A DNA stretch of 64,000 bases from Candidatus Cloacimonadota bacterium (GCA_030445745.1 JASUTE010000002.1:143655-207654); one strand, 5' to 3'. Numbered from the stretch's first letter, positions 53,549-64,000 are shown. Numbers and translations are program-made. The notes: generated by a model not told the origin, from the sequence alone.

Positions 53549-54158
53549 TATGATCTACAAAAATGAAGAAAAGTTTAGAAAACAGTATGGTATGATTGCG
53601 GGAGTAGATGAAGCTGGGCGCGGGCCTCTCGCCGGTCCCGTTGTAGTAGCTGCTGTAATATTGCAGTCTGGAGATAAGTTTGCCAAACTAAACGATTCCA
53701 AAAAACTAACAGCCAAAGTGCGAGCAGAACTTTTTCCAATCATAAAACAGAAAGCGATAAAATATAGTATTATAGAGGTATCGCCAGCCCAAATCGATGA
53801 AATGAACATTTTGCAGGCTACCTTATGGGGAATGCAGCAAGCTGTGGCAGAATTGGCAGAAAAGGATATTTTTAGTTTAATTGACGGAAATAGGGTGCCA
53901 AAGGGATTGTTGGGTGCAGCAGAAGCAATGGTGAAAGGTGATAGCCGTTTTGCTTCCATAGCTGCTGCTTCTATTTTGGCTAAAGTTCACCGAGATAATT
54001 TAATGCTGAAACTGCACGAGCGATTTCCTGAGTATAATTTTGCCAAAAACAAAGGCTATCCTACCAAAGAACATATGGCCGCTATCCGCAAATATGGCAT
54101 TACTCCTTTTCATCGGAAAAGTTACAGACCTGTACAGCAGTATACGTTCAATTTTTAA
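53541..54158 (+). CDS. rnhB: ribonuclease HII
   Basis: This 205-residue enzyme removes ribonucleotides from DNA. The active-site residues appear in GVDEAGRGPLAGPVV (Asp-Glu) and in the later segments VKGDSRFASIAAASILAKV and LHERFPEYNFAKNKGYPTKEH. The ORF track starts with a TTG at 53538. I use the ATG three bases later (53541), still inside the pdxA-fusion gene, with AAAAAGGT upstream. A third ATG at 53550 is also possible. It ends at a bidirectional hairpin. Confidence 0.95.
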   Translation: MNSMIYKNEEKFRKQYGMIAGVDEAGRGPLAGPVVVAAVILQSGDKFAKLNDSKKLTAKVRAELFPIIKQKAIKYSIIEVSPAQIDEMNILQATLWGMQQAVAELAEKDIFSLIDGNRVPKGLLGAAEAMVKGDSRFASIAAASILAKVHRDNLMLKLHERFPEYNFAKNKGYPTKEHMAAIRKYGITPFHRKSYRPVQQYTFNF

Positions 54159-54161
54159 AAT

Positions 54162-54187
54162 AAAAAAAGCCAGCTGGAGTAGCTGGC
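54162..54187 (-). terminator. terminator of the 54.2 kb lipoprotein gene
   Basis: GCCAGCT-GGAGT-AGCTGGC (7 base pairs) is followed on the minus strand by seven T. It lies about 20 bases after the lipoprotein stop and also just after rnhB. Confidence 0.75.
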
Positions 54188-54209
54188 CTAAAATTTATTG
54201 CAATTCAAG

Positions 54210-54854
54210 CTATTTCATTTCAATTTGCATTTCACCAGGATTATTTCGAGGAGTGAATTCTACTTTTTTGCCACCAGCGGGATGAGCAGCTTTTTTGAAG
54301 CCATCATATGCGAAGATGGTAGTTACATCCAATTCAATATATTCGTTCATAGCTACAAATACATTGCCCCAATCGTCCACTAGCTGAATATCCCAAAATC
54401 CAGGGCTAACAGTCCAAGTGATACTCTCTCCAGGACCGATATCACTAGATATTTGGTTGTTTCCCCAATATTGGTCGTCACTATCAGAAATATAAACTTC
54501 TTCGATATAAAAAATATTGGAATTGTTCCAAATAGTAATGGCTCCGCCATCAGCATAAATCTTGAATTTCTTGCTTTCACCTGCCTCAATAGAAAACTCA
54601 ATGTCACTAGTGAAAACATGATAACCGCTATAATCAATTTCTACATCTTTTTCTTCTACACCAAAGATATTAGAAGAAAGCTCCCACGATTTTTCGTAAT
54701 CTTGATTTGCCTCTAAAGTAATTTCGTTACCGTGATTAATTCTAAACCAGACATCATCGTTACTGTTATTTACCACGGTTAGTTCCCCGTTATCTGTACA
54801 ACCGATGAGTACTAAAGCTAGCAATAAAATGGTAAAAATACCAAGCTTCTCCAT
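54210..54854 (-). CDS. lipoprotein with beta-sandwich repeats, unknown function
   Basis: This 214-residue protein has a signal peptide ending in a lipobox (LVLIGC, then TDNGELTVVN), so it is a predicted lipoprotein. The body is a pair of similar beta-rich units: one begins GELTVVNNSNDDVWFRINHG, the other carries IYVSDSDD/WGN-type strands. These resemble binding modules with aromatic turns. I do not recognise a family. I use the ATG at 54854 because AAAGGAGG lies 6 bases upstream and the signal sequence begins there. It is divergent from the kinase gene. Confidence 0.8.
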   Translation of the reverse strand: MEKLGIFTILLLALVLIGCTDNGELTVVNNSNDDVWFRINHGNEITLEANQDYEKSWELSSNIFGVEEKDVEIDYSGYHVFTSDIEFSIEAGESKKFKIYADGGAITIWNNSNIFYIEEVYISDSDDQYWGNNQISSDIGPGESITWTVSPGFWDIQLVDDWGNVFVAMNEYIELDVTTIFAYDGFKKAAHPAGGKKVEFTPRNNPGEMQIEMK

Positions 54855-54978
54855 AAATCCTCCTTTTATATTATACCAAACCAGAGACATAGTAACAAAT
54901 TACGCAAGAAGTTTTTGTAAAAATGAGTTGTATTCAGCAAGAGGTGGGGATAAAGAATTGACAAGAAACGTAACAATA

Positions 54979-57900
54979 ATGAAACTAGTAGATATGAAAA
55001 AGATAAGAAAAATTGGAGAAGGTGCTTTTGCTCAGGTTTGGCTGATGCAAAAGCAAAGTGGAGAAAAGGTAGTAGTAAAACATTTTCAAAAAGACCACAT
55101 AGAGCAGGCTAGAAGAGAGTATCTCTTCCTTAAAACTGTGGCTTCTGCTCAGGTCGTGCAGGTTTATGGCTTTAACGAAGAGCAGGGGCAGCTAGAGCTG
55201 GAATATGTTTCTGGAGAAAAGCCAGAGCCATTTTCCAATCCGGCAAAGCACTCTGTTTGGATGACCCATCTGGCTTCGGTAATTTCCAAGATACATTCGT
55301 ATGGAATTTGTTACAACGACCTGAAACCAGATAATGTGATCGATCGGGAAGGCAAACCAGTGCTGATAGATTTTGGTTTAGCAACTCCTGCTAGATATCA
55401 AGATGGAATCTTTCGGGGTAGTCTGGGCTATGCAGCTCCCGAAAAGATATTTTTCCAAACAAATTCGCAAGCAGCCGATGTTTTTAGCTGGGCGCTTTTA
55501 TATATTTATCTAATTTCAGGAAATTTGCCAGCAGAAGATTTGGGTTTAGAAGTTTATAAAGAACTCTTGCAAGATGACGAGAAGTGGCAGAGCTATTTTA
55601 AAAAATATATAGATAATAAGCTGATCGTTAGCTGTTTGGCTCTGGAGCCTAGGAAGCGGCCCTCCATGGCAGAAGTAACTTATGAGCTGGCTCGGGAAAA
55701 TAATTTGGATTTGGAATATTTGGAAGAAGAGCTTGTAAGCAACAAACTGTTTGATGCTCAACATGAAGCGGTGAGACAACTAACTGAAACCGGCAGATTG
55801 AATTATGATAATGCCGATGAAATCGATAAAATATTGGATAGAGCTGTGTTGTGGGCAGAGTCTACTCGGAAAAGAGCTGTAATTTTAAAAGAAACAGACT
55901 ATGTTTGGCAGCCAGAGTTATTTTTTGGTGAGATATCTGAAGAAAAGATAGCCGAGGATGAAATTGAGCAATTATTACAGGCATCAGCTTCCCAAATTAT
56001 TTTGGTACGCGATGACCCGCAAATTCGCACAGAACTTTTTGATAAATTAGCAGCTAAAAAGGAATTTTGGCAACTGCAAAAAGCAAATTATAGCGATTTG
56101 GGAAATGTAAGCCAAGCTGAGATGAAAACTTTTGCTGACCAGCATCAGATAGAAGTTGGGCTTGAAGATTACCAACCAGCTCGGCCCGGTTTCGCTAGAA
56201 TCTGGTTACAAAGCAAAATAGGTGTATATGCGTCAGCTTCCCAACAAACAAAAGATCTTATCCTTATTCTTTCTCGAATGTCTGCTCCATTACCGCTTAG
56301 TTTATTGCAAGAAATTGCTAAGGATAACTCTTTGGGGGAAGTTCTAGCTCAGCCAGAGGTTAGTTTTCAGGGAGATGCTATAATCTATACAGGCCAGCCG
56401 GTTTCCGGTGAGTTGAACTTAAAATTTGCCAATGAATTATACGATTTAGCTCAAAAGCATAAAGAAATTAAAACAGCTATGCAACTGGCCTTTTTACTGG
56501 GTGAAAAACAGCAGGCATTGGAATTACTTCAGGAAAATATTGAAAATTATATTCAGCTTGAGTATTACAATTCAGCCTACCAGACTTTACAGGTTATGAA
56601 AGCAAAATTGGGAGATTTACCGTTAAATCTGCAGAAAAAAGAGGCTTTTCTTTTGCGCAAACAGGGGAAGTTGGAAGCTGCTTTAAATTGCTATGAAGCA
56701 ATAGAAGTGGATGATAAAGACATGCAATTTGCAGTTTTGGCAGCAGATAAAGCAGTGGTTTTGCAGGAATTAGGAAGATTGGCAGAGGCAGCTGAGATTT
56801 ACAAAAATCTACTGCAAATTTTTAAGGAAAATAACAAAAATAAGGATTATTTGCGTACATTGAACAATTTGGGAGTGGTTGAAGTTCAGGATAATAATTT
56901 TGCTGGTGCTCAGAAAACTTTTTTGCAGCTTTTGGAAACAGCTCAAAACTACAGCGATAAACAATTTATCACTATGGCACATTTGAATTTGGCAGATGTG
57001 TTTTTACGCCAGGCTGAATGGAAACGCAGCTTACTGCAGGCGCAAACCGCTGCCGAACTAGGTGCAAAGTTTGGGAAAAAGAACATTGAAATTTGGGCAC
57101 AAATATATGGAATGCAGGCGCAATGGGGTTTAGGTAAATTCGAGCTTCTGCCCCAAATTATTGAGAAATTGATTGAAGATGAACAACTGCAGGAAAATGC
57201 ACAGTTATACTGCAGTCTACTGATTACCAGCTTGAATATAGCAGCAGCTTTAGAGGAAAAGTTGAGTGAAAAAATATATGAAATTATTAATACCCGGCAA
57301 TTCCAGTTAACTCCTGATGAAAAGGTGGAGATTTTCTGGTATTCTATTCGTACCCAAAATTACTATCAGGCCAATCAGCTTATAGAGCAGCTTCCCAATA
57401 GCTACCTGCAAGATTTGGCGGCAGCTTTACTGAGTTCCCAACAGGAGCAGGTTTTACAAAAATTGCAAGACCTGGCCTTGCAAAACGATATTTTTTTGCT
57501 GTTGAATACAGCTTTTCAAATCATGCAGAGTGGGCTAGTAGATAAAATTAAGTTTTGGCCAGAAATTAACAAATATGAGCAGCTTCACTCGTTTGCTCCT
57601 TTCCAACTTATAAAAAAAGAAACACAAGTGGCTTCCCCCAAAGCGGGTATGGATATGCTTTGGGAAATTATCTCGAAAATACACAGTAACGAAACTTTCC
57701 AAAATACCATGCAGACAGTTTTGGCAGGCATTATTAAAATAGGAAAATTGCAAAGGGCAGTCTTTTTTGCTTTTCAAGAAGATAATATAGAACCTGTGGT
57801 GGGATTAAACTCGGAGTTAGAATCTATCGACATGGAAACGCTTTCGATAAGTACTACAATTCTGCAGGAAACGCTGAAATTGGGTGAAACTAGATATTTT

Positions 57901-59127
57901 TATGACCTGCAGGAAGATATTCCTTTCGATATCCATTCCAGCATTTTTGGGCTAGGTTTAAGAACAGCTGTGTGCTATCCGTTGATTGTTAACAACAGGA
58001 TAGAAGGTGTAATTTATGCCGATACTACTAACGATCGGAGGTTTGATGAAGTAGAACAGAATCTACTGCAAACCGTTTTTGCGCAAGCTAAAATAGCTTT
58101 GGAAAAAACAAAGAAGATAGAAAATTTGAAAACTCAACAACAACGTAGTTTACCTGATAACCAAATTTTCCCAGAAATTATTGGAAATAGCAAAGAGATG
58201 CAACAAATTTATGAAGTTATGAAAACTGTGGGCGAACATAACGTAAATGTGTTGATAACCGGTCCTACTGGGAGCGGTAAGGAGTTAATTGCCAGAGCGT
58301 TGCATAACGAATATAACGCTGAAGCACCTTTTATCCCTGTTAATTGTGCTGCTATTCCTGAAAACTTGCTGGAGAGCGAGCTTTTTGGCTATGCAAAAGG
58401 AGCTTTTACTGGTGCCGACCGCAATCGCAAAGGTAAAATAGAAGCTGCGCATGGCGGAACACTGTTTTTAGATGAAATAGCCGAATTACCTGCTGTGCTA
58501 CAGGCTAAATTGCTACGAGTGCTACAAGAAAGAGTAATCACACCACTTGGCTCCAACCAAGAAATTCCAATCTCTATTCGACTTATTTGTGCTACAAACC
58601 AAGATATCGAAGCAATGGTGGAAAAAGGGAGCTTTCGCCAGGATCTCTTCTATCGTATCAACGTGGTTTCTATAAAAATGCCTCCATTAAAGGATAGAAA
58701 AGATGACATTTTGCCGTTAGCAGAATATTTTCTGCAAAGATATAACAAAAAGTTCGGCAAAAATATTAAATCAATTTCCAACGATTCTGCTCGCTTGCTT
58801 TTGAATCATAATTGGCCTGGCAATGTACGGCAACTGGAAAATTTGGTGGAAAAGGCAGTGCTGATGTCCTCGGGTGATTTTCTGGAAGTGCAGAATTTAC
58901 TCAAAACCGATAACCTGAAACTCTTCTCTGCCGATGAGCCAATCCCCTCTGATTGGCAGGAGTATAAAAAATATCGCAAAAGATTCGTTGACCAGCTGGA
59001 CAGGCGTTTTGCAAAAAAAATAATCACGGAAAATAATGGTAATATTCACCGTGCCAGCCAGCAAGCTCATATTCCCCGTCCCCAAATCTACCGCATACTT
59101 AACAAAAAAGTTACAGAGAAACAATAA
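54979..59127 (+). CDS. fused Ser/Thr protein kinase - TPR - GAF - sigma-54 activator (enhancer-binding protein)
   Basis: This protein has about 1,382 residues from the chosen start. In order: a Hanks-type kinase (1-260) with GEGAFAQVW, VVKHF lysine K34, catalytic D114 in YNDLKPDNV (non-RD), DFG D131 and APE. Then a long helical TPR-like region (about 560-760) and a GAF-like domain (about 890-1045). A sigma-54 AAA+ domain (about 1085-1310) follows, with Walker A GPTGSGKE and the sigma-54-contacting GAFTGA (about 1141). A Fis-type helix-turn-helix closes it (HRASQQAHIPRPQIYRIL). It should open promoters bound by sigma-54 RNA polymerase. The ORF track starts at 54805 inside the divergent lipoprotein gene. 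A TTG at 54958 with AAGAGGTGGGG upstream is an alternative start. A consensus sigma-54 promoter lies 209 bases after the stop. Confidence 0.9.
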   Translation: MKLVDMKKIRKIGEGAFAQVWLMQKQSGEKVVVKHFQKDHIEQARREYLFLKTVASAQVVQVYGFNEEQGQLELEYVSGEKPEPFSNPAKHSVWMTHLASVISKIHSYGICYNDLKPDNVIDREGKPVLIDFGLATPARYQDGIFRGSLGYAAPEKIFFQTNSQAADVFSWALLYIYLISGNLPAEDLGLEVYKELLQDDEKWQSYFKKYIDNKLIVSCLALEPRKRPSMAEVTYELARENNLDLEYLEEELVSNKLFDAQHEAVRQLTETGRLNYDNADEIDKILDRAVLWAESTRKRAVILKETDYVWQPELFFGEISEEKIAEDEIEQLLQASASQIILVRDDPQIRTELFDKLAAKKEFWQLQKANYSDLGNVSQAEMKTFADQHQIEVGLEDYQPARPGFARIWLQSKIGVYASASQQTKDLILILSRMSAPLPLSLLQEIAKDNSLGEVLAQPEVSFQGDAIIYTGQPVSGELNLKFANELYDLAQKHKEIKTAMQLAFLLGEKQQALELLQENIENYIQLEYYNSAYQTLQVMKAKLGDLPLNLQKKEAFLLRKQGKLEAALNCYEAIEVDDKDMQFAVLAADKAVVLQELGRLAEAAEIYKNLLQIFKENNKNKDYLRTLNNLGVVEVQDNNFAGAQKTFLQLLETAQNYSDKQFITMAHLNLADVFLRQAEWKRSLLQAQTAAELGAKFGKKNIEIWAQIYGMQAQWGLGKFELLPQIIEKLIEDEQLQENAQLYCSLLITSLNIAAALEEKLSEKIYEIINTRQFQLTPDEKVEIFWYSIRTQNYYQANQLIEQLPNSYLQDLAAALLSSQQEQVLQKLQDLALQNDIFLLLNTAFQIMQSGLVDKIKFWPEINKYEQLHSFAPFQLIKKETQVASPKAGMDMLWEIISKIHSNETFQNTMQTVLAGIIKIGKLQRAVFFAFQEDNIEPVVGLNSELESIDMETLSISTTILQETLKLGETRYFYDLQEDIPFDIHSSIFGLGLRTAVCYPLIVNNRIEGVIYADTTNDRRFDEVEQNLLQTVFAQAKIALEKTKKIENLKTQQQRSLPDNQIFPEIIGNSKEMQQIYEVMKTVGEHNVNVLITGPTGSGKELIARALHNEYNAEAPFIPVNCAAIPENLLESELFGYAKGAFTGADRNRKGKIEAAHGGTLFLDEIAELPAVLQAKLLRVLQERVITPLGSNQEIPISIRLICATNQDIEAMVEKGSFRQDLFYRINVVSIKMPPLKDRKDDILPLAEYFLQRYNKKFGKNIKSISNDSARLLLNHNWPGNVRQLENLVEKAVLMSSGDFLEVQNLLKTDNLKLFSADEPIPSDWQEYKKYRKRFVDQLDRRFAKKIITENNGNIHRASQQAHIPRPQIYRILNKKVTEKQ

Positions 59128-59335
59128 AGATACATATCTATTTAAATCCTATTTGCTTCAGAGTTGGCTCGGTATTATTTGCAAAAAGAGCGAGTATTTG
59201 AGTGATAAACGTTTCAATAATGTAACAGACAGTTGAACTCACTTTTTATTAATTTTGTGAAATTAAAACGATATTAATCCCTTATCCAAGGGCTATAAGC
59301 GCTTTCTTAAAAAATTATTGCCTGTAATGATGGGT
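59128..59335. other. intergenic region upstream of the sigma-54 promoter, with candidate activator site
   Basis: I see no gene here. At 59279-59299 two overlapping inverted repeats occur, CCCTT-ATCC-AAGGG and CTTAT-N9-ATAAG, followed by AAGCGCTT (a palindrome). They lie about 65-85 bases upstream of the predicted transcription start, where enhancer-binding proteins commonly bind. This is inference. Confidence 0.4.
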
Positions 59336-59352
59336 TTGGCACGCTGATTGCT
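59336..59352 (+). promoter_or_regulatory. sigma-54 (RpoN) -24/-12 promoter
   Basis: TTGGCACG-CTGA-TTGCT matches the consensus YTGGCACG-N4-TTGCW at every defined position, with GG and GC 12 bases apart. It lies 38 bases before the ATG of the following secreted protein gene. I saw no other match of this quality in the window by eye. Confidence 0.9.
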
Positions 59353-59390
59353 CTATATTTTGCTAAATCGATTAAATTTAGGAGGAAATT

Positions 59391-61829
59391 ATGAAACGAT
59401 TAATGATTTTGTTAGCAGTTCTGGCAACATTTGCACTCTCTGCTGCAACTATTTCAGGTAATGTTACTACAGAACTTCCCGATAGTGTTCTTACGGTTAC
59501 TGCTCTACAACCAGGCAATCCACAGGGACATGTAAGCGTGGAAGTAGAAGACGGTACTTATGTTATCGAGGAATTGGAATTGGGAACTTATTATGTTAAG
59601 TTAGAAGCATTAGGAGCTCATCTTTTTTATGATGGAGTTTTGTTCATGGAAGATGCAACTCCTATCGAACTAACAGAAGCAAATCCCCAGGCGAGTGAGA
59701 TTAATTTTAATTTAGAAACTCCAGAATTGGGAGCAATAATTGGTAATGTTATGGGATGTGGGAGTTGTCCGGAGGGACCTCCGAGCGGCAGCGTGAAACT
59801 TTATGATATGCTACCTTCCGAAGCAGGAGCAGAAGCGATTGCAGAATATGAATTAGAAACTACTCATTATGCCTTTACAGAATTAGAATTTGGAACTTAT
59901 TATGTTGGGCTTTTCTGGGAAGGCCAGGATCCAATTTATTATGAAGATACTGCTGATCCAGCTTTAGCGACAGCCATTGAATTGAGTATAGAAAATCCAG
60001 TAGCTCACGAAATCAATTTCGATTTGGGTGAAACACCCGAACTTGGCATGATTGCAGGATTTGTAGATGGCGTTATGATGCCAAATAGCTATACAGTTGC
60101 ACTTTACGATCAATTGCCAGTAGAGCCAGAGATTGAACCAGTAGCTGAAGATAATGTAAATGGACACCACTATGCATTCCATAATATTGAATTTGGAACA
60201 TACTACCTTAAATGTTACCACGAAGATGGTGAAGTACAATACTATGATATGCAGGAAGATCCTAATAACGCAACTGCTGTAGAAGTAAATGTAGAAAATC
60301 CAGTAGCACTGGGAATCAACTTTGCTATGGAAGGTAATTTTTCAGGAAGCGGTACAATAACAGGTATGGTAACCGATCAGAATGCCGAACCTATCTTTGA
60401 AGCTGTTGTACATTTACATCGTGTGAATAATGGTGGCAACCAGGGAGGGATGCCAAATTTCCCTCATGTAGCTTTAACCGCAGAAAACGGTATATATTCC
60501 TTAGAGAATATCCCAGCCGGAGAATATTACGTAAAAGTGACTAAGGATGGGTTCTTCCCTGAGTTTTATGAAGAAGCTTCACATTGGCAAGATGCTACTA
60601 TAATCACCATAGAAGATGATTCTGAATTAACCATAGATTTCAGTTTAGATAGCTTAGCGTTCTATCAACTCAGCGGAGTTGTTTTAGATGCTGCTGGAAA
60701 TCCACTAGAGGGAACTGTCGTATTTGCCAAAGGTTCAAATTGCCAAAATCCAGGTAATCCGCTCAACTTGAATGGCCCTACAGCCGAAACAGATGCTGAA
60801 GGAAACTATACATTAGAATTAGCTACAGGAGATTATATTGTTGGAGCTCTAGCAATTTCAGGTGAACAGCAATCTATTCAGTTCTACGATCATAAAACAA
60901 ATCCCTTGGAAGCAGATATAGTAACTGTGGAAAGCGATTTGGAAGGTATAAATTTTGATCTTCCCGAACCTGCTTCCTATGAAAACAGTCTATCTGGTGT
61001 GGTAAGCTTGGAAGGAGAGCCAGCAGCTAATGCAGTTATTGTAGCCATGAGCTCTGATCAAACATTTGCCACTACAGTATTAGCAAATGAAAATGGCTAT
61101 TACGAATTTTCACTACCGGCAAACGAATACTACTTAGCTGCAAATGCTGAAGGTGGTTTGAATACATTCTATCCTGGTGTTATTAATTTCCAAGCAGCAG
61201 AAACAGTTGAAGTTACCGGTGTAGTTACAGATATTAATTTCGAAATCATTCCTCAAGCAGGTGGTGGATATTTTGTCGTAGATGGCTATGTGAATGATCC
61301 CAATGGGCAGCCGGTTTACAATACAACAGTTAGCTTTACCGATGCCTATGGCAATGTGGTAGCAACAGCAACAACCGATGCTAGTGGCTATTACGAAACT
61401 GCAGAGCTATCTGTAGGTGAAATAGAAGGATTAGCAACCAAAGTCTTCTATGAATCTGATACCGAAACAATGGAAGTTTATGGCAATACTACGGTAGATT
61501 TCACTATTGAACCTATGGAACAACTGAGCAATGAAGGTACTCCAGATTTACCTAATAAAATAGCAACCCACAACTACCCTAATCCTTTCAATCCAACTAC
61601 CACAATTAGCTTCAATATTCCACAGCAAACCAATGTAAATGTTACTGTTTACAATGTGAAAGGTGAAAAAGTTAAAACCCTGGTTAATTCAGCTCTAAAC
61701 TCAGGTACTCATACTGTTGTTTGGGATGGCGAAGATGATAACCAAAATGCAGTAGCCAGCGGAGTTTATTTCTACAAAGTTAGAACTGAGAACTCTACGG
61801 CTGTTAAAAAGATAATGATGATCAAATAG
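59391..61829 (+). CDS. large secreted carboxypeptidase-regulatory/SdrD-B-like repeat protein with sorting domain
   Basis: This 812-residue exported protein has a signal peptide (MKRLMILLAVLATFALSAA). The body is built of beta-sandwich repeats. Three units of ~95 residues share a motif around ELEFGTYYV/IEFGTYYLK followed by an ENP..A..INF segment. Then come three or four carboxypeptidase-regulatory-like units (GxxTxxxGxYxLxxxPAGEYYV). The C-terminus is a sorting domain (YPNPFNPTTTISF at about 729, then VYNVKGEKVKTL, GVYFYKV, KKIMMIK). It is probably displayed at the cell surface by the type IX-like system. SD AGGAGG lies 6 bases before ATG, behind the sigma-54 promoter. Confidence 0.88.
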   Translation: MKRLMILLAVLATFALSAATISGNVTTELPDSVLTVTALQPGNPQGHVSVEVEDGTYVIEELELGTYYVKLEALGAHLFYDGVLFMEDATPIELTEANPQASEINFNLETPELGAIIGNVMGCGSCPEGPPSGSVKLYDMLPSEAGAEAIAEYELETTHYAFTELEFGTYYVGLFWEGQDPIYYEDTADPALATAIELSIENPVAHEINFDLGETPELGMIAGFVDGVMMPNSYTVALYDQLPVEPEIEPVAEDNVNGHHYAFHNIEFGTYYLKCYHEDGEVQYYDMQEDPNNATAVEVNVENPVALGINFAMEGNFSGSGTITGMVTDQNAEPIFEAVVHLHRVNNGGNQGGMPNFPHVALTAENGIYSLENIPAGEYYVKVTKDGFFPEFYEEASHWQDATIITIEDDSELTIDFSLDSLAFYQLSGVVLDAAGNPLEGTVVFAKGSNCQNPGNPLNLNGPTAETDAEGNYTLELATGDYIVGALAISGEQQSIQFYDHKTNPLEADIVTVESDLEGINFDLPEPASYENSLSGVVSLEGEPAANAVIVAMSSDQTFATTVLANENGYYEFSLPANEYYLAANAEGGLNTFYPGVINFQAAETVEVTGVVTDINFEIIPQAGGGYFVVDGYVNDPNGQPVYNTTVSFTDAYGNVVATATTDASGYYETAELSVGEIEGLATKVFYESDTETMEVYGNTTVDFTIEPMEQLSNEGTPDLPNKIATHNYPNPFNPTTTISFNIPQQTNVNVTVYNVKGEKVKTLVNSALNSGTHTVVWDGEDDNQNAVASGVYFYKVRTENSTAVKKIMMIK

Positions 61830-61831
61830 GG

Positions 61832-61870
61832 AATTATTATTCCGGCGGTTGTCTGCCGCCGGTTTCCCTT
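61832..61870 (+). terminator. hairpin between the two secreted-protein genes
   Basis: CCGGCGG and CCGCCGG pair (61842-61862), with outer GGGAA/TTCCC also able to pair. T-rich sequence follows. It may attenuate transcription into the next gene or mark a transcript end. Confidence 0.55.
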
Positions 61871-61896
61871 TATATTTTTCGTGTATAGGAGGCATC

Positions 61897-63723
61897 ATGA
61901 AGAGAATATATCTTATTTTAATTACTCTATTCTTAGCTGCCAGCAATTTGTTTGCTTTCAGCATAAGTGGAAATGTTTATGACAATAGCGAACCGCAACA
62001 AGCTATTCTGAAGCTCTACGATCAGTTTCCCTGTATGAGTGCAGAACCGGTACAACAAATAGATTCCACAGAAGATGGTTCTTATGAATTTACATTGGAA
62101 GTTTCTGGAGTTTATTATGTGGAAGCTGCTTTATTGGATAACCCCAATTTGGGAATTTTTTATGAAAATAGCCTGCAACCTATAGCAGCAACTCCTATAC
62201 ACATTCACCAGACCAATCCTGAAGTTACAGATATCGATTTTGATTTAGCGCTACTTCCCCAAGCTAATAATTCAATTTCGGGAATAGTTACCGGCAACAA
62301 TGCGACTGTTTTGACTGATGCTACCATAAAGCTGTTCATGTTGGAACCTCCTAACAATCCTCCCATGGTTACTTTTTCCAATGAAAATGGGTACTATGAA
62401 TTTGTGAGCCTGGTAGATGGAGAATACCTGATGCAGGTTCATTATCTTGGTTACCAACCCTATTTCTATGATGGAGCTATGGGTTGGCCACAAGCAGATG
62501 TAATTGTTTTGGAAGATAGCACGCAAGTTACGATCGATCCAGTGTTGACCGCCATGAATACCAATTCTGTTTGCGGTTACGTAGAAGATTTGCAGAGTGG
62601 CGAAGCTTTGGAAGGGGTAGAGATATATGCCCTCAGACAAAATGAACAAAGTAATAATCTTGTCCCTATTCCAAGTGCAGAAACTAATGCGGATGGGCAA
62701 TATTGCCTGGATCTACCAGCTGGTTTCTACCAGTTCTATGCTCAAGACCCGCAAAGTGGCGAGATTCAATTCTATCAGGACGCAGAATCACCATTAAATG
62801 GCGAGTGGGTACTTGTGAATAATGATATTAATAGTATAGATTTTGTTTTGGATACTTCAATAGACGATAATTACTCTGTTTCCGGTAAAATAACTGTTGG
62901 TAACATACCCCCCATAACACCTATTTTAGCGGTTGCAGTTTCCAGCGATGAAGATTGGGAAGATGTAACCATGACCAACAGTGCTGGGGATTATGAATTC
63001 CCCAGCTTACCGGAAGGAGAATATTATATTATGGCTTTCAGCGATCAAAATACTCCCACCTATTACCAAAATGCTATCGATTTCCAGGAAGCTGAACTCG
63101 TAACGGTAGATTCTGATATTAGTAACTTGAATATCGATGTTGAAATACCACAAGAAACAGGATATTATGAGGTTAGCGGCTATGTGAGTGACCAGGAAAA
63201 CCAACCGGTGCAAAATGCTACAGTGCTTTTCCTAGATGAAAATGGCGATGTGGCAGATTTTGCCTTCACCAATGGTTTAGGTGCATATAACAGTCCATAT
63301 TTAAGTGGTTTGAATTACACAGCGATTGCTACTAAAACTTTCTTTACTACGGATATCGAATTAGTAGCTGTTTTGGGAAACCAATCGCAGGACTTTGTTA
63401 TAAATCCAACCCAAACTTCTTATAACACGAATTCGATACCGGAAAATCCATTAGCTCTAAAAGTTTATCCTAATCCTTTTAATCCCAACACAACTATTAG
63501 TTTTAGTTTATCGGAAACAGCTTCCCAGGTGAAATTAGAGATCTATAATGTCAAAGGACAATTAGTAAAAAGTAAAATTTTCCCCTATTTGGAAGCAGGG
63601 TCGCATCACTTTACTTGGAATGCCAAAGATGCTCATGGAGATTCAATCGCTAGCGGTGTGTATCTTCTTAAAATAGCAACAGATAAGATTGTTAGCACGA
63701 AGAAGATGTTGCTACTGCAATAA
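61897..63723 (+). CDS. second secreted repeat protein with sorting domain
   Basis: This 608-residue protein is a shorter paralogue of the preceding one. It has a signal peptide (MKRIYLILITLFLAASNLFA), three or four carboxypeptidase-regulatory-like beta units (for example ISGIVTGNNATVLTDATIK and VSGYVSDQENQPVQNATVLF), and a C-terminal sorting domain (YPNPFNPNTTISF, IYNVKGQLVKS, GVYLLKI, STKKMLLLQ). The ORF track starts at 61849, but TAGGAGG lies 4 bases before the ATG at 61897, where the signal peptide begins. It is 67 bases after its neighbour, possibly in the same sigma-54 transcript. Confidence 0.88.
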   Translation: MKRIYLILITLFLAASNLFAFSISGNVYDNSEPQQAILKLYDQFPCMSAEPVQQIDSTEDGSYEFTLEVSGVYYVEAALLDNPNLGIFYENSLQPIAATPIHIHQTNPEVTDIDFDLALLPQANNSISGIVTGNNATVLTDATIKLFMLEPPNNPPMVTFSNENGYYEFVSLVDGEYLMQVHYLGYQPYFYDGAMGWPQADVIVLEDSTQVTIDPVLTAMNTNSVCGYVEDLQSGEALEGVEIYALRQNEQSNNLVPIPSAETNADGQYCLDLPAGFYQFYAQDPQSGEIQFYQDAESPLNGEWVLVNNDINSIDFVLDTSIDDNYSVSGKITVGNIPPITPILAVAVSSDEDWEDVTMTNSAGDYEFPSLPEGEYYIMAFSDQNTPTYYQNAIDFQEAELVTVDSDISNLNIDVEIPQETGYYEVSGYVSDQENQPVQNATVLFLDENGDVADFAFTNGLGAYNSPYLSGLNYTAIATKTFFTTDIELVAVLGNQSQDFVINPTQTSYNTNSIPENPLALKVYPNPFNPNTTISFSLSETASQVKLEIYNVKGQLVKSKIFPYLEAGSHHFTWNAKDAHGDSIASGVYLLKIATDKIVSTKKMLLLQ

Positions 63724-63744
63724 TAGATGCTTACCTGATTCATG

Positions 63745-63780
63745 AAAAGAGAAGAGTATAGAGGCTTTTCTCTTTTTTTT
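63745..63780 (+). terminator. terminator after the second secreted-protein gene
   Basis: AAAAGAGAA and TTCTCTTTT form a 9-base-pair stem with a 14-base loop, ending in a run of eight T. Confidence 0.75.
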
Positions 63781-64000
63781 TGTATTAATTTTTGGCAGAT
63801 GTAATGGTAAATTTTCTAAAAATTTACAAGAATAAATGAGAAAATTGCAGAGACCAGCATAAAGCCAGAAATTTCTCATAAATTTCTGAAACGGATAATC
63901 CTGGCGGAGAGCCAGGGATTGCTGATTCGAAGAAATGCTATTTCTTCTCATTACAGCGCTACTTCGCAGCTAATTTTGCTAGCAAAATTAGATTCCTGCT
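63781..64000. repeat. gene-free end of window with palindromes
   Basis: I see no gene. At 63970-63991 there is a perfect 22-base palindrome whose half is CTAATTTTGCT. At 63900-63916 CCTGGC-GGAGA-GCCAGG can form a hairpin. The short ORF 63712-63951 on the minus strand is not convincing. The palindrome could be an element end, a regulatory site or a terminator lacking its T-run. Confidence 0.4.

Follow-up and report, generated by a model that had tools for sequence, protein, structure and literature searches.

In the window analysed here (the whole 64,000-nucleotide stretch of DNA), a single gene encodes a sigma-54 activator with its own N-terminal Hanks-type kinase, and is followed by an exact match to the -24/-12 promoter and by two genes for predicted exported surface proteins bearing T9SS type A sorting domains. 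The architecture, the promoter, a pair of candidate operators, the type of cargo and their conservation are well supported by sequence comparison, and it is quite probable that the activator switches the surface genes through sigma-54. Whether kinase activity triggers that switch is judged to be about evenly balanced.

In the proposed mechanism the cytoplasmic activator would bind the palindrome GTwwCAnnnnTGwwAC approximately 126 nt 5' of the -24/-12 promoter, and its AAA+ ring would remodel RNA polymerase-sigma-54 to allow transcription of both surface genes, the products of which would be exported by Sec and then carried or anchored by an SprA-type (type IX-like) system. The timing of ring formation would be set by the N-terminal portion (kinase, TPR and GAF); most likely, the TPR/GAF portion would receive a partner or ligand that switches the kinase, leading to phosphorylation of the activator itself or of a linked inhibitor. 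A twin palindrome at the 5' end of the activator gene would let the activator limit its own synthesis.

The activator and the surface proteins

The activator gene (54979-59127, + strand) is predicted to encode a protein of 1382 amino acids, although orthologs favour the ATG at 54994 over 54979 as its start. Pfam placed Pkinase (E 1e-29), TPR, GAF_2 (6e-10), Sigma54_activat (6e-70) and AAA_lid domains in this one open reading frame, and the order from the N- to the C-terminus is Pkinase (residues 7-233), a middle region without annotation, TPRs, GAF (906-1042), sigma-54 AAA+ (1067-1232), lid and Fis-like HTH. No HTH was called by Pfam in the product of 54979-59127; the C-terminal ASQQAHIPRPQIYRIL is conserved in the orthologs and is predicted to form the Fis-like HTH. 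The Sigma54_activat AAA+ domain with its GAFTGA and Walker motifs places the protein among the sigma-54 enhancer-binding proteins, while the Pkinase fold with its K, E, catalytic D, N and DFG Asp identifies a Hanks-type kinase, which is of the non-RD type since the HRD motif reads xND. Across 10 activator orthologs of 35-46% identity, both the GAFTGA loop and the kinase residues K34, E47, D114, N119 and D131 were found to be invariant.

An AlphaFold model covering residues 1-873 (mean pLDDT 89, pTM 0.66) was locally confident and consists of the kinase, a region at approximately 255-470 that is first mixed alpha/beta and then helical, and a helical-repeat arm. Matches to the model in the PDB include PknG, many kinases and, at a low whole-model TM-score, the STAND-TPR structure 6mfv (a weak match, TMq 0.30). 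There was no Pfam NTPase match in the middle region (approximately 255-470), which on the model may be a degenerate STAND-like module. There was also no receiver domain (Pfam) and no transmembrane-like segment in the activator sequence, so any signal must reach the activator inside the cell; the external signal that a preliminary description of this DNA had allowed for is not supported by this.

When the AAA+-HTH part was compared with NCBIfam, the best match was PrsR (TIGR02915; 348.8 bits, below the cut-off of 502.6), and the activator likewise fell below the equivalog cut-offs of NorR (344.6 against 476 bits) and NifA (326.2 against 528.85 bits). It is a distinct possibility, somewhat short of even, that the activator controls the surface genes while its kinase has other protein targets or serves as a scaffold, and that switching depends on a GAF ligand or TPR partner as in NorR or NifA. 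The GAF domain lies directly before the AAA+ domain, which is the usual sensing position, and could sense a ligand without involvement of the kinase; both NorR and NifA rank near the top of the NCBIfam matches, and members of the activator clade without a kinase exist (see below). Against this, the checked catalytic residues are invariant in the orthologs at 35-46% identity, so that kinase activity is probably under selection.

The two surface genes lie at 59391-61829 and 61897-63723 (both + strand) and are predicted to encode proteins of 812 and 608 amino acids, respectively. Both proteins have hydrophobic, signal-peptide-like N-termini, CarboxypepD_reg repeats and a Por_Secre_tail/T9SS type A domain above cut-off (TIGR04183, 43.5 and 44.7 bits against a cut-off of 23), and the combination of sorting domain and signal peptide marks both as predicted T9SS type A cargo. 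An SprA homologue in the genome (502 bits, including neighbours in frame) is the basis for assuming a type IX translocon, and there are 70 sorting-domain matches genome-wide. The preliminary description had proposed a kinase, TPR-like region, GAF domain, sigma-54 AAA+ motor and HTH in a single gene, and two exported repeat proteins with type IX-like sorting domains; the Pfam domains, the conserved GAFTGA loop and Fis-like C-terminus, and the features of the two surface proteins agree with it on both counts.

Between the surface genes there is a terminator-like hairpin and possible attenuator (61842-61862, + strand; an 8-pair stem with 7 G-C pairs, then TTT), and another terminator-like hairpin lies 3' of the second surface gene (63744-63777), such hairpins being near chance frequency across the region overall. 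Given these two hairpins, the product of the first surface gene may be made in excess. An in-frame TTG at 61849 falls inside the first hairpin, which makes the ATG at 61897 the most likely start of the second surface gene.

Promoter and candidate operators

The sigma-54 promoter TGGCACGCTGATTGCT (59337-59352, + strand) matches the -24/-12 consensus exactly, 209 bases 3' of the activator stop as first described, and occurs at the same place in orthologs; transcription of the surface operon is predicted to start at approximately 59362. The rpoN gene, the presence of which had been put forward as a check on the preliminary description, was found in the same genome (E 3e-51), along with seven strong sigma-54 activator domains. 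Exact -24/-12 sites number 4 in the 2.04 Mb genome compared to 0.56 expected from base composition, sites with at most one mismatch number 40 compared to 9 for a reversed control pattern, and the chance of an exact site on one strand of the 263-nt intergenic stretch is approximately 3e-5. Two of the four exact sites precede sorting-domain genes (the site at 59337-59352 and one before a beta-helix protein on C16) and the remaining two precede an exported PDZ protein and a small hydrophobic protein; as the genome has 70 sorting-domain matches, exact sigma-54 sites do not define a regulon of all such genes.

Two of these other sites also have regulatory genes beside them. The beta-helix sorting-tail gene behind its exact site has response-regulator and sigma-54 activator genes after it (L081:9350-11649, G000:C16), and the exported PDZ gene is followed by genes resembling those for a histidine kinase and for a response regulator of the sigma-54 type (L082:7596-12003, G000:C20).

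The candidate enhancer (UAS) of the surface operon is the palindrome GTTTCAATAATGTAAC (59211-59226, + strand), which is 126 nt 5' of the -24 element and aligns with similar sequences located 90-250 nt 5' of the promoter in relatives. The only other place in the window at which GTNNCANNANTGNNAC occurs is 54970-54985 (+ strand), where the candidate autoregulatory operator GTAACAATAATGAAAC is found. Genome-wide, GTWWCANNNNTGWWAC has two matches, at these same two positions flanking the activator gene, against three for the backwards control. A stricter palindrome, GTTNCANNNNTGNAAC, reached significance only for the window and the relatives closest to it, and the looser form was used for this reason. 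The inverted repeat at 59279-59299 (+ strand), proposed at first as the enhancer, is present and is not conserved in the intergenic alignment; it is probably incidental, and the palindrome at 59211-59226 with its twin at the activator start fits better.

In 14 genomes, the 5' ends of the activator gene and the promoter regions together gave 24 palindrome matches with at most one mismatch compared to 0.92 in shuffles, a density of 5.6 per kb compared to 0.23 per kb in flanks; this enrichment is optimistic, as the pattern was read by eye off these regions and the set includes the close relatives G009/G021 and G080/G081. The operator is conserved in part of the activator family: related palindromes precede the activator gene in G009, G020, G021, G006, G098, G080 and G081, and the palindrome in this form is absent at the activator gene of G015, G001, G004, G019 and G014. 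A few unrelated copies occur elsewhere in the other genomes.

At the 5' end of the activator gene, a TTGACA box and possible -35 element (54958-54963, + strand) is present, and 8 of 10 activator orthologs of the same family have TTGAC spaced comparably from their start codons. The position of the 54970-54985 palindrome between this conserved box and the likely start at 54994 suggests that the activator limits its own synthesis. We infer with good support from these comparisons that the activator would bind the operator and drive the surface operon via sigma-54, and, with weak support, that it may repress its own gene.

No convincing -10 box was seen 5' of the activator gene, and a sigma-70 promoter there is unconvincing beyond the TTGACA box. 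A search of 54000-64000 against Rfam returned nothing. A divergent lipoprotein-like gene (54210-54848, - strand) adjoins the activator gene. In two relatives, pairs of operator-like palindromes 366 bp apart (G009:C50:17931-18312 and G020:C203:5277-5658) could be further targets.

Conservation in related genomes

The full-length fusion was found in 14 of the 125 genomes searched in the phylum (13 orthologs besides the one described here), and a fifteenth genome has an activator fragment at a contig end. A surface gene of the same kind adjoins the fusion in 11 of the 14 genomes, in two gene orders. The order activator, -24/-12 site, surface gene is seen in seven (this genome, G009, G020, G021, G006, G015 and G001, the site in G001 having two mismatches). 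In four of another family (G080, G081, G098 and G099) the surface gene is upstream of the activator, and the sigma-54 site before it is exact in G080 and has two mismatches in G081; G098 and G099 were left outside the promoter count as the available sequence begins inside the surface gene. In G004, G019 and G014 the surface pair is on a different contig from the activator, still behind a sigma-54 site. That site departs from consensus at two positions in G014; in G004 and G019 it is exact and lies 56 nt ahead of the start. An exact site also lies 5' of a surface gene copy in G026, an incomplete genome in which the activator was not detected. Altogether GG-N10-GC was present in 13 of 13 testable surface operons, ten of them with at most one mismatch. 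Relatives retain both the gene order and the -24/-12 site, conservation of which had been another check offered. The description of the locus as a self-contained module stands in part: activator and surface gene are linked in 11 of 14 genomes, but are apart in three relatives, and in four the surface gene is upstream of the activator.

Co-occurrence was assessed across 59 genomes using the family of surface protein 2. Both genes were present in 8 genomes, the surface gene only in 1, neither in 48 and the activator only in 2 (both on truncated contigs), giving a Fisher P of 2e-7 which is optimistic since the genomes share descent. Relative G038 has a different C-terminus, and neither a promoter nor a surface gene lies in the available piece. 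A broader contig scan, dominated by the common AAA+ motif, named no close ortholog but did bring up the Caldithrix and Ignavibacteria records described below. In G014, G019, G004 and G026 a conserved TTGACA lies approximately 13 nt 5' of the -24 element (L209-L212).

It is unlikely that the surface genes are sigma-54-controlled through another enhancer-binding protein and that the kinase-activator is a neighbour with some other target. The genome has other candidates among its seven activator domains, and activator and surface genes are unlinked in three relatives; the adjacency of the two in 11 of 14 genomes (in either of two orders), the matched operators that flank the activator gene and the co-occurrence across the 59 genomes argue for control by the adjacent activator. 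Coincidence, in which an ordinary activator sits beside unrelated surface genes (numerous in this genome, as the 70 matches indicate) and a chance promoter match, is very improbable in view of the small chance of an exact intergenic site and the conservation of site and order in relatives at 35-46% protein identity.

Kinase-less relatives and known systems

In a tree of the AAA+ domain, the fusions and the activators without a kinase from G033, G024 and G027 formed one clade (support 1.0), with the kinase-less TPR activators (660-710 aa) nested inside the fusion clade. Downstream of these, too, lie a sigma-54 site and genes for exported proteins, which carry recognisable sorting tails in those cases where enough contig is available. 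Two tandem cases of this layout lie on G033 C198; the site is exact in G024 (where the contig ends), has three mismatches in G027 and has two on G033 C181, while on G033 C15 a site with one mismatch precedes a receiver-like gene and a gene for an exported protein in which no tail was recognised. As these clade members have much the same layout, the kinase is not needed for it. Caldithrix and Ignavibacteria records (L097:6842-9897 and L111:6926-9978) contain a GAF-type sigma-54 activator gene and, directly after it, a separate gene for a Hanks kinase with PEGA domains, close to sorting-tail proteins, in what is possibly a split version of the fusion; the adjacency of the two genes suggests that the kinase and activator functions go together. 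No site within one mismatch of the sigma-54 consensus was present in the examined Caldithrix/Ignavibacteria stretches. Tentatively, and with a probability placed a little below even, one clade of sigma-54 activators in the phylum would serve T9SS-type surface proteins specifically. Its ancestral form, equipped with its own Ser/Thr kinase, would be a one-polypeptide autoregulated signal-to-promoter relay replacing the usual two-component pair, and its kinase-less descendants would have taken over other surface operons.

The activator has the GAF-AAA+-Fis HTH core in common with NorR and NifA, and differs from them in its extra N-terminal kinase, middle region and TPRs (approximately 890 residues). 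Mycobacterial PknK also combines a kinase, a middle region and a TPR arm in one cytoplasmic regulator. The MalT-type STAND regulators (PMC4381067) are likewise single cytoplasmic proteins with a middle region followed by a TPR arm, and 6mfv is among the model matches. Unlike PknK and these regulators, the activator has a middle region without a Pfam NTPase match, and its output is a sigma-54 AAA+ domain and a Fis-like HTH.

Control of surface components by sigma-54 is an established theme (PMC3162934). In the sprCDBF adhesin operon of Flavobacterium psychrophilum, a sigma-54 promoter 5' of T9SS-secreted surface adhesin genes was tested by reporter and mutagenesis (PMC9723704); the cargo is different, and a fused-kinase activator in cis is not described in the portion of that report drawn on here. 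Aquincola has an RpoN-dependent PEP-CTERM gene with predicted PrsK-PrsR input (PMC9850573), a system that likewise has a sigma-54 promoter and predicted enhancer before a surface protein with a C-terminal sorting domain, but in which a predicted histidine kinase and receiver domain are in two proteins and the tag is PEP-CTERM, compared to a fused Hanks-type kinase and a T9SS-type tag here. In Xanthomonas PknS-EcfK (PMC13147305), a Hanks-type kinase also promotes alternative-sigma transcription of a secretion trait; that kinase is a separate transmembrane protein, its target is an ECF sigma factor and no AAA+ activator is involved. The words sigma54 and RpoN are absent from a review of bacterial Hanks-type kinases (PMC6213207), and a kinase-sigma-54 activator fusion was not found described in the open-licence papers searched. 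The earlier statement that no described system has this exact layout holds for those papers, PMC9723704 and PMC9850573 being close functional precedents. Sigma-54 control of sorted surface proteins is thus already known, and the kinase fusion acting in cis is the part for which the papers searched gave no description.

If the proposal is correct, a Hanks-type kinase feeds straight into sigma-54 transcription in one protein, a route not found described, and surface display in a little-studied bacterial group is tied to a defined switch whose promoter and operator are specific and which could be rebuilt in a laboratory strain. The activator clade would then also be a marker with which to find further surface-protein regulons wherever genomes encode T9SS-type cargo. 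Elsewhere in the genome, a sigma-54 activator gene (L088:12361-13863, G000:C1) lies beside apparent type III CRISPR genes (Cas10 and RAMP-like by eye) and could encode an RtcR-like, CRISPR-linked regulator.
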